A stretch of DNA of 64,000 nucleotides from Kyrpidia sp. (lineage in GTDB: Bacteria; Bacillota; Bacilli; Kyrpidiales; Kyrpidiaceae): positions 1-64,000 of the forward strand of contig JASBVV010000023.1 in NCBI GenBank assembly GCA_029960885.1, in the 5' to 3' direction. Under the pieces are notes generated by a model. It did no database searches and was not told the origin of the DNA. It worked only from the letters and a program-made list of their open reading frames with translations. Positions within the stretch are counted from its first letter, which is position 1; the number at the start of each line of letters is the position of its first letter. The position numbers were made by a program, and so were the translations under genes. Shown piece after piece: positions 31,808 through 38,128 of this stretch.

Positions 31808-31885
31808 GTCTGCCGGCCGGGAAAAAGGTGTATAATGAAGCCGATTGAGATCGAAGGTGCAGATTCAGGGGGTGTGAGGGCATCG

Positions 31886-32827
31886 ATGAAACTGGGAATG
31901 TTTGCGGTGGATGGGGAGGCCCGATTGGGATTGGCCTGGGGTGAGAACCGGGTGGTGGATGTGGCGGCTGCCCAGCGGAAACTCTCGGAAGCCGGCCTGG
32001 TTGCCGACGGACCGGTGGCCGGAGGGGATCTTCTCTCGGTGATCACCGAATGGGACGGCCCGGCCGGACAAGCTCTGCGGGCACTTCACCAGGCCCTGGC
32101 GGCGGTCGGCAACGCCCCGTGGACGCCGGCGGGGGGCGGGGTGGTTTTTGATCCGGAAGAGGTCGAGATGTTGCCCCCGCTGGGTCGACCGGGCAAAAAC
32201 GTTTTGTGTTTGGGGAAGAACTATGAGGAACACGCCAGGGAGGTGAATTCGGACCGACCGGAATATCCCGTGGTGTTTTCGAAGGCCACCACCTCCCTGA
32301 CCGGGCACGGCTCCGGGATTCTGCGCCACCGCGGGGTGACCGACCAACTGGATTACGAGGGTGAATTGGCCGTGGTCATCGGGCGCACGGCGAGGGGGGT
32401 ATCCCGGGCAAAGGCGATGGATTACATATTCGGGTATACCCTGATCAATGACGTGACGGCCCGGGATTGGCAGTGGAGGCACCAGCAGTGGCATTTGGGG
32501 AAAAGTTTTGACACGTTCTGTCCCATGGGGCCGTTTGTCGTTCCCAAGGAATTTGCGCCGCGGGTTCAGGATATGGTGCTGCAGACCCGGGTCAACGGCG
32601 AATTGCGCCAAACGGGGCGGCTGTCCGACCTGATTTTTGACATTCCGACCATCCTCGAAGTCATCACCGCGGGGATCACCCTGGAGCCCGGGGACGTGAT
32701 CGCCACCGGCACTCCGGCGGGGGTGGGCATAGGGTTTCAACCGCCGCGTTTTCTGGAGGTTGGAGATGAGATTGAAATTTCAGTGGATGGGGTCGGCACA
32801 CTGAGGAACCGGGTGATTGAAGGGTGA
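31886..32827 (+). CDS. Fumarylacetoacetate hydrolase-family protein
   Basis: The 313-residue protein has an N-terminal small domain and an FAH barrel with KNVLCLGKNYEEHAREV, the metal-binding acidic residues in DQLDYEGELAVVIGR, TLINDVTARDWQ and GDVIATGTPAGVGIGFQPP. Members hydrolyse or decarboxylate 2,4-diketo or oxalo acids such as acylpyruvate, oxaloacetate or homoprotocatechuate products. The substrate here is open. An ATG at 31835 inside a TATAATG would add 17 residues; homologues support 31886. Not part of this block in B. subtilis. Confidence 0.88.
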   Translation: MKLGMFAVDGEARLGLAWGENRVVDVAAAQRKLSEAGLVADGPVAGGDLLSVITEWDGPAGQALRALHQALAAVGNAPWTPAGGGVVFDPEEVEMLPPLGRPGKNVLCLGKNYEEHAREVNSDRPEYPVVFSKATTSLTGHGSGILRHRGVTDQLDYEGELAVVIGRTARGVSRAKAMDYIFGYTLINDVTARDWQWRHQQWHLGKSFDTFCPMGPFVVPKEFAPRVQDMVLQTRVNGELRQTGRLSDLIFDIPTILEVITAGITLEPGDVIATGTPAGVGIGFQPPRFLEVGDEIEISVDGVGTLRNRVIEG

Positions 32828-32865: not shown

Positions 32866-32936
32866 TTGACAACGATTTTAGGGTCCTGTTATAATGTTTC
32901 CTTCGTTTGACATTCGTCGGCCGTTCGTGATACACT
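32866..32936 (+). promoter_or_regulatory. Tandem SigmaA promoters of veg
   Basis: P1: TTGACA (32866-32871), 18 bp, TATAAT (32890-32895), a perfect hexamer pair. P2: TTGACA (32907-32912), 18 bp, TACACT (32931-32936). The start codon follows at 32961. The B. subtilis veg promoter is also exceptionally strong. Confidence 0.85.
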
Positions 32937-33295: not shown

Positions 33296-33394
33296 ATTCT
33301 TTGCAAAGGGCGCATGTTCCGGCCGGGCCCGGGGATACTGAGGGATGGACGCCAAAAAGACTCGCAGGAGTCCACCGACAGGGGGGATCGGCTC

Positions 33395-33583
33395 GTGCCG
33401 AGACGGCGTGGCGTGATGTCCGAGGAGTTCAAGGTCGAGTTGGCCAAGGACCTCGGGTTTTATGACACCGTGCAGCGCGAAGGCTGGGGTGGCATCCGCG
33501 CCCGGGATGCGGGGAATATGGTGCGGCGAGCCATCGAAATTGCCGAGAAATCGTTGCGGGAGCGCCACGATACCGACCTGTGA
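33395..33583 (+). CDS. sspF: Alpha/beta-type small acid-soluble spore protein SspF
   Basis: The 62-residue protein reads [20 protein letters not shown], then [20 protein letters not shown] and [14 protein letters not shown], the two conserved SASP motifs as in B. subtilis SspF. These proteins coat forespore DNA, protect it from UV and heat, and are degraded by Gpr at germination. The GTG start has a GGGGGGA box. Expression is expected from SigmaG; I see no clear SigmaG promoter. A terminator follows. Confidence 0.93.
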
Positions 33584-33592
33584 ACGGCGGCC

Positions 33593-33620
33593 GGCCAGGG
33601 GGCATCCCCTGGTCTTTTTT
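33593..33620 (+). terminator. Intrinsic terminator of sspF
   Basis: A 9-bp stem (33593-33601 with 33606-33614) around GCAT is followed by six Ts at 33615-33620. It separates sspF from the cyanophycin genes. Confidence 0.85.
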
Positions 33621-33641
33621 CGTGAGGAGGGGGCAACAGGC

Positions 33642-34448
33642 GTGGAAGCAAAGCCCGGTCCCCTGGTCATCATTGGAGGCGCCGAGGACAAACAGGGGGA
33701 TTGTGTGATCCTGCGGGAAGTCGTCCGGTTGGCCGGGGGAAGCCGAGCCCGGATCGTCGTCGTCACCGCGGCCACCGAGTTTCCGGTCGAGGTGGGGAAT
33801 GAGTACGCCGGCGTGTTTCTGCGGTTGGGAGCCGGAGATGTGCAGCCCCTTCATATCGGCAGGCGGGAGGAAGCGGAGGCTCCGTTTGCCGAGCGGTTGG
33901 TGGAGAAGGCCACCTGCGTGTTTTTTACGGGGGGAGAACAACGGCGAATCACCCGGCTTCTCGGGGGGACCCGCCTGGATGCCGTGCTGCACCGGATGCA
34001 CGGGGAGGGGTTGGTGCTGGCCGGAACCAGCGCCGGGGCATCCATGATGTCGAGCACGATGATCGTCGAGGGGGAGGCGGAGACCCATCCCCGGCCCGGG
34101 ATTGTTCACATGGAACCGGGGATGGAATTTCTTGCCGGATTGGTCATCGACCAGCATTTTGCCCAAAGGGGGCGGCTGGGCCGTTTGTTGTCGGCGGTGG
34201 CAAAATATCCCCATCATTTGGGACTGGGGATTGACGAGAACACGGCGGTCATCGTCTCGGGGTTGGAGTGCCGCGTGATTGGTTCAGGGGCGGTGAGCAT
34301 CGTCGATGCGGGAGCCCTCACCTATTCGAATGTGGATCGGGCGGACCGGGGAGAACCCCTCGCCCTTTGCGGAGTCCGGTTGCACGTGCTTCCCGCCGGG
34401 TATCGGTTTCACCTGCGCGAACGCCGGCCGGTGTTGGACGATGACTGA
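33642..34448 (+). CDS. cphB: Cyanophycinase
   Basis: The 268-residue peptidase of family S51 cuts cyanophycin into beta-Asp-Arg dipeptides. The nucleophile Ser is in LAGTSAGASMMS; PLVIIGGAEDKQG, FFTGGEQRRIT and IDQHFAQRGRLGRLL are typical. The GTG start has a GAGGAGGGGG box. It lies 30 bp before cphA in the same orientation, so the two form an operon for making and breaking one storage polymer. No cytoplasmic export signal is seen, so it is intracellular. Confidence 0.92.
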   Translation: MEAKPGPLVIIGGAEDKQGDCVILREVVRLAGGSRARIVVVTAATEFPVEVGNEYAGVFLRLGAGDVQPLHIGRREEAEAPFAERLVEKATCVFFTGGEQRRITRLLGGTRLDAVLHRMHGEGLVLAGTSAGASMMSSTMIVEGEAETHPRPGIVHMEPGMEFLAGLVIDQHFAQRGRLGRLLSAVAKYPHHLGLGIDENTAVIVSGLECRVIGSGAVSIVDAGALTYSNVDRADRGEPLALCGVRLHVLPAGYRFHLRERRPVLDDD

Positions 34449-34478
34449 GCCTCACCGAGAAGATGAGGAGTTGACATC

Positions 34479-37160
34479 ATGAAGATTCTCGACGTTCGGT
34501 TCATTCCCGGGCCCAATATTTACGTGGCCAAACCGGTGCTCGTTGCCCGGATTGATCTCGAGGACTTGACCGAGCGAGAAAGTCGCGAGTTTCCGGGTTT
34601 TGGCGAAGGGCTCATCCGGCGTTTGCCCGGGGTGGCCGACCACCACTGTGCCAAGGGGGCTCCGGGCGGCTTTCTCGAGCGGCTGCGGGAAGGTACATAT
34701 TTTGGCCACATTGTGGAGCACGTGACGTTGGAATTGACGGATCGGATCGAGGCTCCCGCGTATTTTGGGAAAACCCTGTATGCCGGACGACCCGGGCTGT
34801 ACGACGTGGTCATGGAGTGCAGCGCTCCCGAGGCCATGACCCGTCTGCTTTCCATCGCCGTGGACCTCGTGCGGGCCCTCCTGGACGGTCGGGTGTATCC
34901 GTTGGAGGAGGCCCTGGAGGACGCCCGGGAGATTCATCGCAGGCACATGCTGGGCCCCAGCACCCTGGCGATCATTCGGGCGGCAAGAGCCAGGGGCATT
35001 CCCTGCAGGCGCGTTCTCGGCGGCAGCTTCGTCCAATTGGGGACGGGAAAATGGGCAAAACGCATGGAAGCCACCATTGGGCCCCACACCTCGGCGGTGG
35101 CGGTGGACATCGCATGTAACAAGGCGTATACCAAGGCGGTGTTGAAGGAGGCCGGGGTCCCGGTTCCGGAGGGCGGAACCGCGCTCTCTGAAGACGAGGC
35201 GCTGGAGATGGCCCGTACAGTGGGGCTGCCGGTGGCGGTGAAGCCGGTTCGCGGCAACCAAGGCCGGGGGGTTACGGTGCGGGTGGACTCCGAGGAGGAG
35301 GTGCGGTGGGCGTATCGCCGGGCGGCGGAGGTCGACCGGGAAGTGATCGTGGAACGGTGGGTTCCGGGACGCCAGTACCGCGCTCTGGTGGTGCGGGGCC
35401 GGCTGGTGGCCGCGGCCCTGCGCCGCCCGGCCCGGGTGACGGGTGACGGCATTCATTCGGTGCAGGAGCTGATTGATCTGGAGAATGCCGATCCCCGCCG
35501 GGGGGTGGGACACGAAAAGCCCTTAACGCAAATTCGCACCGATGAGAACGTGTTGCGCCAGTTGGCCGCACAGGGCTTGGATTTGGACTCGGTGCCCGAA
35601 CCCGGCCGCACGGTGGTGCTGCGCGACAGTGCGAATTTGAGCACCGGGGGCACGGCGGCGGATGTCACCGATTCGGTTCATCCGGATCAGCGGCGGTTGT
35701 GCGAGCGGGCCGCCCTGGCGGTCGGTTTGGATATCTGCGGCGTGGATCTGATGACGCCGGATATGACCCGATCGCCGGCGGAGGTCGGGGCGGTGGTGCT
35801 GGAAGTGAACGCGGCGCCGGGGATTCGCATGCACGAGTTTCCGTCGGAGGGGACCCCCCGCCATGTGGGCCGGGCGATTGTCGATGCCCTGTTTCCTCCG
35901 GGTCATCCTTTCCGGGTCCCGGTGTACGCGGTAACGGGAACCAATGGCAAAACGACCACCGTGCGGATGATCGCACACATCCTCCAGACCTGCGGGGAAA
36001 CGGTGGGCATGGCCACCACCGACGGGATCTACGTGGATGGCCGGCAGATTGTGGAAGGCGACACCACCGGGCCGGACAGCGCGCGAACGGTGTTGGCCCA
36101 TCCCGATGTCACGGCGGCGGTGTTGGAGACCGCCAGGGGTGGACTGATTCGCGGGGGACTCGGTTATGAATGGGCCGATGTGGCGGTATTGACCAACATT
36201 TCCTGCGATCATATCGGTCAGGATCACATCGAATCCCTCGAGGACTTGATTTTTGTCAAATCTCTGGTGGCCGAACGGGTGTACCCGGGGGGGACAGTGG
36301 TCCTCAACGCCGACGACCCTTCCCTGGTGGCCTTGGCCGGCCGCCTTCGACGTCGGATTTTCTTCTTCAGTTTGCGGGCGGATCACCCGGTGGTGTTGCG
36401 CCATCTGGCCGTCGGCGGCACCGCGTTTCTCGCCAAGGACGGGTGGATTCTGGAACGGACCGGGGCCCGAACGTGGCCCATCGTGCGGATTTCGGCCGTT
36501 CCGGTCACGTGCAGGGGGGCGGCGCTGTTTCATGCGGCCAATGCGTTGGCGGCGGCCGCGGCCTGTAGGGCTGGAGGGGTGCCGCGTTCCCGGGTGGCAC
36601 AAGCCCTTCGCCGATTCGGCACGGAGGTGGATAATCCCGGCCGCACCAACCTGTACCGGGTCGGAGAGGCCTATGTTCTGGTGGATTACGGACACAATCC
36701 ACATAGTTTCGCCGCGATCGGACAGTTGGCGGCTCAGTGGCCGGGCCCGAGAACGACCGCCGTTCTGGGCGTGCCCGGGGACCGGGAGAACTGGGTCATT
36801 CAGTCGGCGGGACAAGAGGCCGCGCATCATTTTGACCGGATTTGGGTCAAAGAGGATGTCGATACCCGGGGCCGGGAACGGGGGGAGGTGGCGGCGCTGT
36901 TGGCCGATGCGGTTCGAACCGCCGAACCGTCGCGTCCGGTTTACGTTCGGTTGGCGGAAACGGAAGCCCTTCGGGAAGCGCTGATCTCCTCGGTGCCCGG
37001 TGAGTTGATCGTGGTGTTTTATGAGAAGAAAGAGCCTCTGCTGGAGGTGCTCAGGGAGCTGGGAGCCAGGAGGGAGATGCAGTGGCCGCGGGCGGCCGGG
37101 CTTGGGGCTCGCGTGGTGGGTGCGAGACCGAGACAACTTTGGCAGACCACGATACAATAG
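34479..37160 (+). CDS. cphA: Cyanophycin synthetase
   Basis: At 893 residues it has the normal length and three-domain plan: an N-terminal domain (about 1-160), an ATP-grasp domain (about 215-470; VAVKPVRGNQGRGVTV, LEVNAAPGIRMHEFP) that adds aspartate, and a Mur-ligase-like domain (about 480-880; AVTGTNGKTTTVRMIAHIL, DYGHNPHSF) that adds arginine. The product, multi-L-arginyl-poly-L-aspartate, stores nitrogen. The GAGGAG box precedes the ATG. The pair cphB-cphA is inserted between sspF and ispE. Because it follows a spore gene, a link to sporulation is possible but not shown. Confidence 0.95.
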   Translation: MKILDVRFIPGPNIYVAKPVLVARIDLEDLTERESREFPGFGEGLIRRLPGVADHHCAKGAPGGFLERLREGTYFGHIVEHVTLELTDRIEAPAYFGKTLYAGRPGLYDVVMECSAPEAMTRLLSIAVDLVRALLDGRVYPLEEALEDAREIHRRHMLGPSTLAIIRAARARGIPCRRVLGGSFVQLGTGKWAKRMEATIGPHTSAVAVDIACNKAYTKAVLKEAGVPVPEGGTALSEDEALEMARTVGLPVAVKPVRGNQGRGVTVRVDSEEEVRWAYRRAAEVDREVIVERWVPGRQYRALVVRGRLVAAALRRPARVTGDGIHSVQELIDLENADPRRGVGHEKPLTQIRTDENVLRQLAAQGLDLDSVPEPGRTVVLRDSANLSTGGTAADVTDSVHPDQRRLCERAALAVGLDICGVDLMTPDMTRSPAEVGAVVLEVNAAPGIRMHEFPSEGTPRHVGRAIVDALFPPGHPFRVPVYAVTGTNGKTTTVRMIAHILQTCGETVGMATTDGIYVDGRQIVEGDTTGPDSARTVLAHPDVTAAVLETARGGLIRGGLGYEWADVAVLTNISCDHIGQDHIESLEDLIFVKSLVAERVYPGGTVVLNADDPSLVALAGRLRRRIFFFSLRADHPVVLRHLAVGGTAFLAKDGWILERTGARTWPIVRISAVPVTCRGAALFHAANALAAAAACRAGGVPRSRVAQALRRFGTEVDNPGRTNLYRVGEAYVLVDYGHNPHSFAAIGQLAAQWPGPRTTAVLGVPGDRENWVIQSAGQEAAHHFDRIWVKEDVDTRGRERGEVAALLADAVRTAEPSRPVYVRLAETEALREALISSVPGELIVVFYEKKEPLLEVLRELGARREMQWPRAAGLGARVVGARPRQLWQTTIQ

Positions 37161-37210: not shown

Positions 37211-38128
37211 GTGGTCTGCGAGAAAGCACCGGCGAAAATCAATCTTTCCCTGGATGTCCTCTATCGCCGAGACGACGGATACCATGAAGTGGAAATGGTC
37301 ATGCAAACGGTGGATTTTGCAGACCGTGTTTTTCTTGAAGCGGCCGACGAACTCCGGTTCACTTGCAGTCATCCGACGCTCCCGACGGACGAGCGCAATT
37401 TGGCCCTGCGCGCCGCCCGGTTGATGCAGCGGGTGGCGGGGGGCGGTCTGGGCGCGTCGATCCACTTGGACAAGCGCATTCCGCTTTCGGCGGGACTGGC
37501 GGGAGGATCCACCGATGCCGCCGCGGTGTTGCGAGGGCTGAATCGGCTCTGGCGGTTGGGCTTGACGTTGGATGAATTGGCCGAGATCGGTGCCGCACTC
37601 GGTTCCGATGTGCCTTTCTGTGTGTACGGAGGCACGGCGTTGGCCCGGGGGCGCGGCGAGCGGATTGAGATCTTGCCGCCGTGCCCGCCGGTGTGGGTCG
37701 TTCTGGTCCATCCGCCGATTTCCGTATCCACGGCTTCGGTGTATGCCCGGCTCCGCCTGGACGAGGTGCGGAGTCATCCGGAGACGCCCCGGATGGTGAA
37801 CGCCGTTCGCAAAGGGGACATTGAAGAGATCGCCCGCCGTCTCGGCAATGTCCTGGAAACAGTGACTTTTGCCCTGCATCCGGAAGTGCGGCGGATCAAG
37901 GCCCAGATGATCCGTTTCGGGGCGCTCGGTGCGCTGATGTCGGGCAGCGGGCCCACGGTGTTCGGCCTGGTGGACAGGCAGACGAAAGCGGAGAGGATCT
38001 ACAATGCCTTTCGAGGCTTTGTGCGGGAGGTATACCTCACCCGGGTGTGCAGTCTGGGCGACGACGTTGTGGGAAAGCGGAGGGAAGTCTATGGATGCCA
38101 TCGTCCTGACGGGGGGGAGCGTTTCTGA
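37211..38128 (+). CDS. ispE: 4-diphosphocytidyl-2-C-methylerythritol kinase
   Basis: The 305-residue GHMP kinase acts in the MEP isoprenoid pathway. It shows the N-terminal KAPAKINLSLDVL, the ATP loop IPLSAGLAGGSTDAAAVLRGLN, GSDVPFCVYGGTAL and LMSGSGPTVFGL. GTG start with GGGAGGG. The 3' end overlaps the next gene by 38 bp. Confidence 0.94.
   Translation: MVCEKAPAKINLSLDVLYRRDDGYHEVEMVMQTVDFADRVFLEAADELRFTCSHPTLPTDERNLALRAARLMQRVAGGGLGASIHLDKRIPLSAGLAGGSTDAAAVLRGLNRLWRLGLTLDELAEIGAALGSDVPFCVYGGTALARGRGERIEILPPCPPVWVVLVHPPISVSTASVYARLRLDEVRSHPETPRMVNAVRKGDIEEIARRLGNVLETVTFALHPEVRRIKAQMIRFGALGALMSGSGPTVFGLVDRQTKAERIYNAFRGFVREVYLTRVCSLGDDVVGKRREVYGCHRPDGGERF

Follow-up and report, generated by a model that had tools for sequence, protein, structure and literature searches.

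In Kyrpidia sp., cphB and cphA form a complete pair for making and breaking down cyanophycin, a pair whose most probable place is within the forespore programme of sporulation, as judged from promoter patterns, co-occurrence and gene order. We also favour, by a modest degree of belief, the broader reading that the pair is an ancestral member of the Bacillota forespore regulon, in which the polymer would be an arginine and aspartate reserve or filler made in the developing spore under sigma-F/sigma-G, and that cphBA has since disappeared from most Bacilli, whose locus is otherwise the same. Cyanophycin genes are known in many spore formers, and a forespore promoter signature tells where and when to look; if the reading is true, a storage polymer joins SASP and dipicolinate among the known forespore contents.

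An intact cyanophycin synthetase and cyanophycinase pair

The window, that is, the whole stretch of 64,000 nucleotides analyzed here, comes from an assembly of 2.04 Mb in 102 contigs that is 86% complete and carries one cphA. On its forward strand, cphB (33642-34448) starts with GTG and encodes a cyanophycinase of peptidase family S51 with 268 residues, followed 30 bp downstream by cphA (34479-37160), encoding a cyanophycin synthetase 1 of 893 residues. CphB scores 296.9 bits against the TIGR02069 cyanophycinase model (cut-off 126.6) and matches the cyanophycinase structure 7uqv along almost its whole length with an E-value of 3.8e-68. It contains the nucleophile motif GTSAGAS at residues 128-134 as well as the DQHF..R.R motif; GTSAGAS and DQHF are common to the cyanophycinases 7uqv, 3en0, and 7uqw of the S51 fold family, from which CphB shows no notable difference. 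CphA reaches 1121 bits against TIGR02068 (cut-off 850), covering model positions 1-860 of 862, presents the Pfam N, ATP-grasp, Mur-ligase middle, and Mur-ligase C-terminal domains in that order, and aligns over the span 1-857 with the cyanophycin synthetase 7lg5 (E 1.8e-224). The preliminary description of a cphB and a full-length cphA 30 bp apart, with ATP-grasp and Mur-ligase domains, was right in its coordinates and is borne out by both family cut-offs.

The N domain of CphA carries the primer-making motif Cx19HxxEH (C57 to H81), which is absent from CphA2 (PMC9262961). The Mur-ligase active site is also intact, with the P-loop TGTNGKTT at 486-493 and D577-H578, both nearly invariant. An intact Mur-ligase active site is needed for arginine addition and separates CphA1 from CphA2. 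Because the primer-site, P-loop, and DH motifs are all present, the window's CphA is a CphA1 and not a CphA2, and it is near certain that cphB and cphA encode an ordinary, intact cyanophycin make-and-break pair of known kind. The same three motifs and the full-length N, G, and M domains are found in the CphA1 enzymes of Synechocystis sp. UTEX2470 (7lg5) and Trichodesmium (7wac), which differ from the window's enzyme in genomic setting, in promoter type, and at one ATP-grasp position, where the catalytic His267 of cyanobacterial CphA1s is replaced by Gln261 (codon about 35259-35261). Histidine occupies this position in the solved CphA1 sequences compared, whereas glutamine is found there in 98 of the 103 CphA sequences aligned from Bacillota, His267 being a feature of solved CphA1s that lies outside the family definition. 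Since this is a lineage difference and the D. hafniense CphA is reported to be active (Ziegler 2002, as cited in PMC5532821), we do not take Gln261 as excluding CphA1; the substitution may reflect a different mode of acyl phosphate stabilization.

At the start of the window's cphB (33620-33650), the ATG used in two congeners reads ACA, and its start codon seems to be a GTG that lies a few bases 3' of this triplet, with a longer spacing from the ribosome-binding site.

A forespore-type promoter signature upstream of cphB across Bacillota

We scanned the 150 nt 5' of cphB at 121 loci for sigma-factor patterns, allowing spacers of 10 to 24. The patterns used are Haldenwang-type B. subtilis consensuses, for which 15 (sigma-F) and 18 (sigma-G) are the textbook spacers. 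The sigma-F pattern GHATR-N-GGNRANANTR, at 11/12 matches or more, occurs with spacer 15 in 37 of the 121 loci, versus 0-10 at each other spacer, and the sigma-G pattern GHATR-N-CATNHTA, at 10/11 or more, occurs with spacer 18 in 30 of 121, versus 0-9 elsewhere, the two counts possibly scoring one site twice. Since both patterns share the -35 box and have overlapping -10 frames, sigma-F and sigma-G are treated as a single forespore class. The forespore signal was reproduced neither by shuffled sequences nor by decoys that were reversed or wrongly spaced, nor by cphA-internal sequence. After clustering at 70% CphA identity, a forespore-type site is present in 31 of 71 clusters, where control spacers would predict 3.3; the majority of clusters show no match at the threshold used. 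A consensus-free search for spaced word pairs returned GTAT-N23/24-ATA, CTA, and TAT among the strongest, beside Shine-Dalgarno words.

Patterns for sigma-E (over spacers 10-24), sigma-K, and sigma-A gave no peak at the right spacer 5' of cphB in the 121 loci, and those for sigma-B and sigma-H were flat. Upstream of ispE, the same scan yielded a sigma-A peak only, at spacer 17 (34/104). Forespore expression of cphBA across Bacillota is thus likely on these promoter statistics, according to which a sigma-F/sigma-G promoter lying about 60-75 nt 5' of cphB would have the pair transcribed mainly in the forespore. This phylum-wide signature is the new and testable part of the present analysis: it is unreported in the literature searched, which lay mostly outside subscription journals and in which we found no paper joining cyanophycin and the forespore.

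Promoters and terminator of the locus in Kyrpidia

The pair lies directly after the sspF terminator and before ispE, as the preliminary description had placed it. The genes on its 5' side are yabG, a fumarylacetoacetase-like gene, veg, and sspF, and those on its 3' side are ispE, a MobA-like gene, purR, ridA, spoVG, and glmU. On the same strand as the pair, sspF (33395-33583) encodes an SspF-like SASP of the alpha/beta type (PF00269, 25.5 bits, cut-off 22) that is 95-97% identical in congeners. It is preceded by a putative forespore (sigma-F/G type) promoter, possibly serving sspF-cphB-cphA, at 33312-33340 (+), which reads GCATG-N14-GGGGATACTG and matches the sigma-F consensus at 12/12 positions with a spacer one below the usual 15. 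None of 1000 shuffles equalled this score, and two congeners (~80% protein identity) retain both boxes, with most of the spacer different. The earlier statement that promoters give no link to sporulation needs correcting, given this 12/12 sigma-F-type match at sspF and the forespore-type promoters of cphB in other Bacillota.

Between sspF and cphB, an intrinsic terminator (33593-33620, +) consists of a 9-pair stem, GGCCAGGGG..CCCCTGGTC, followed by TTTTTT, and is conserved in congeners. This terminator and a ribosome-binding site occupy the 58-nt gap between the two genes, in which none of the promoter classes tested was detected. Candidate cphB promoters within sspF or the gap were rejected for this genus, the best matches being weak and driven by coding sequence. 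Among Bacilli, no cphB promoter is seen where the sspF-cphB gap is 86 nt or less, sspF itself usually having a forespore-type one, and cphB mostly has its own forespore-type promoter where the gap is 110 nt or more. Because no separate promoter was found for cphB and the putative one of sspF is of the forespore type, forespore expression of cphBA in Kyrpidia would need read-through from sspF. Such expression is plausible, with cphBA perhaps riding on the sspF promoter through partial read-through of the terminator, although the terminator looks efficient and would argue for attenuation. The major SASP genes of this genus, used as positive controls, were partly informative, one having a forespore-type match and the others none.

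Downstream, a housekeeping-type ispE promoter, GAGACA-N17-TACAAT, lies within the 3' end of cphA (37130-37158, +) in a sequence block conserved in congeners, so expression of ispE (37211-38128, +; TIGR00154, 306 bits) need not depend on cphBA transcription. Two further features of the neighbourhood may be recorded. The fumarylacetoacetase-family gene (31835-32827) stands between yabG and veg in Kyrpidia, a place at which the other Bacilli examined gave no sign of it, and veg is preceded by a perfect 12/12 housekeeping promoter, TTGACA-N18-TATAAT, at 32866-32895.

Relation to sporulation and alternative roles

A link to sporulation had been proposed on the grounds that the pair adjoins a SASP gene. 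The link itself gains from the forespore-type promoters of cphB in other Bacillota, from co-occurrence with SpoIVA, and from earlier literature, but the sspF adjacency falls away as a reason, since it is part of an old order also kept by Bacilli that lack cphBA. SpoIVA is present in 89 of 90 genomes with cphA versus 167 of the 210 without cphA (Fisher p 1.3e-6, genomes being counted regardless of phylogeny), and the sole cphA genome in which SpoIVA was not found is the incomplete bin G350.

Precedents for the spore link exist in C. perfringens and in segmented filamentous bacteria (SFB). In C. perfringens, likewise a spore former though a distant species, cphBA has been reported to have a role in spore assembly (Liu et al. 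2016, as cited in PMC5532821 and PMC6174930). In SFB, a connection of cphAB-ispE with ger genes and a supply of amino acids at germination have been proposed (PMC9482736); that locus shares the ispE adjacency of the window, yet its other neighbour is the ger operon, whereas the window has sspF and no adjoining ger genes.

The alternative that survives best, although we consider it unlikely, is that cyanophycin serves growing or starving cells as a general store of nitrogen and carbon, as in cyanobacteria, and that the position of the pair between a spore gene and ispE is incidental, with transcription from housekeeping promoters or by read-through. The lack of a dedicated cphB promoter in the window and the terminator that separates cphB from sspF are in its favour, as is C. 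ljungdahlii, in which granules are reported in growing cells and cphB is upregulated under stress, in non-sporulation conditions, and tied to arginine catabolism (PMC13241827). The cyanophycin polymer could not be extracted from that species (PMC13241827); its granules and cphB induction fit a vegetative store. Against a general store, however, the 121 loci give no sigma-A signal 5' of cphB in a scan that does detect one at ispE, and cphA is nearly exclusive to genomes with SpoIVA.

Considerably less probable is a mother-cell product, in which sigma-E or sigma-K would direct cyanophycin synthesis outside the forespore and the polymer would help to assemble the coat or spore envelope. This would suit the structural or spore-assembly role ascribed to the C. 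perfringens CphA (work cited in PMC6174930 and PMC5532821) and the SipL-domain spore gene that precedes cphB in some clostridial loci, but it meets the missing sigma-E and sigma-K peaks at the right spacer. The SipL-domain (spore morphogenesis) gene lies directly 5' of cphB in seven clostridial loci (L077, L084-L087, L089, and L090), and genes recognized by eye as YkuD-like L,D-transpeptidases are found in the same position in several other loci.

Distribution and history of the locus

The earlier view that cyanophycin is scattered among bacteria proved an incomplete picture, as cphA occurs in 90 of the 300 Bacillota genomes sampled (~30%). In the 93 cphA loci retrieved for gene order, cphB adjoins cphA in 88 and ispE lies 3' in 81, often followed by mobA-like, purR, spoVG, and glmU genes, and the order cphB-cphA-ispE is common to many Bacillota families. 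Adjacency of sspF to the pair is found mainly in Bacilli such as Alicyclobacillus and the genus Kyrpidia. Most Bacilli are without cphBA; in 11 cphA-negative Bacilli examined, the surrounding order is kept, with sspF directly beside ispE in 10, and the old order yabG-veg-sspF-ispE-purR-ridA is likewise retained by Bacilli without the pair. Pairwise CphA distances (Mantel) track those of GlmU (r 0.81), CphB (0.77), and IspE (0.62).

As sspF and ispE remain neighbours in Bacilli that lack cphA, the cphBA-ispE locus looks ancestral, and the simplest history suggested by these data is its repeated loss rather than an insertion beside sspF. Recent horizontal acquisition next to sspF, for which one could cite the CphA of Acidobacteriota bins and the absence of the pair from most Bacilli, is very improbable and is rejected by synteny, given the constant cphB-cphA-ispE order across many families and the parallel between CphA distances and those of GlmU and IspE. 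The CphA sequences of the Acidobacteriota-labelled bins (L027, L035, L038, and L043) are 48-53% identical to that of the window, closer than most clostridial ones.

Proposed synthesis and breakdown route

By homology and motifs, CphA is predicted to polymerize aspartate and arginine with ATP, using primers made at its own N-domain site. Made in the forespore, as we favour, the polymer would pack arginine and aspartate there, and CphB, an isoaspartyl dipeptidase, and arginase, whose genes are all present, could then, during germination or outgrowth, set free aspartate, arginine, ornithine, and urea. The search suggested earlier for a dipeptidase acting on beta-Asp-Arg elsewhere in the genome was successful, as the isoaspartyl dipeptidase IadA is found above cut-off on another contig (G000:C36:2638-3798); among Firmicutes with CphA1, just about 10% are reported to have IadA or IaaA (PMC10206079). 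Arginase is present in the window's genome, and arginine deiminase gave no match in this genome or in two congeners, so the arginine freed from the polymer would be converted to ornithine and urea.

Besides, in L097, L099, and L138, which belong to one clostridial family, the gene directly 5' of cphB is similar to isoaspartyl dipeptidase, and that of L099 reaches 439 bits against TIGR01975, making a complete iadA-cphB-cphA cluster. One Kyrpidia congener (G001) has only an IadA-matching fragment (C1:2664221-2664406), maybe a broken gene.
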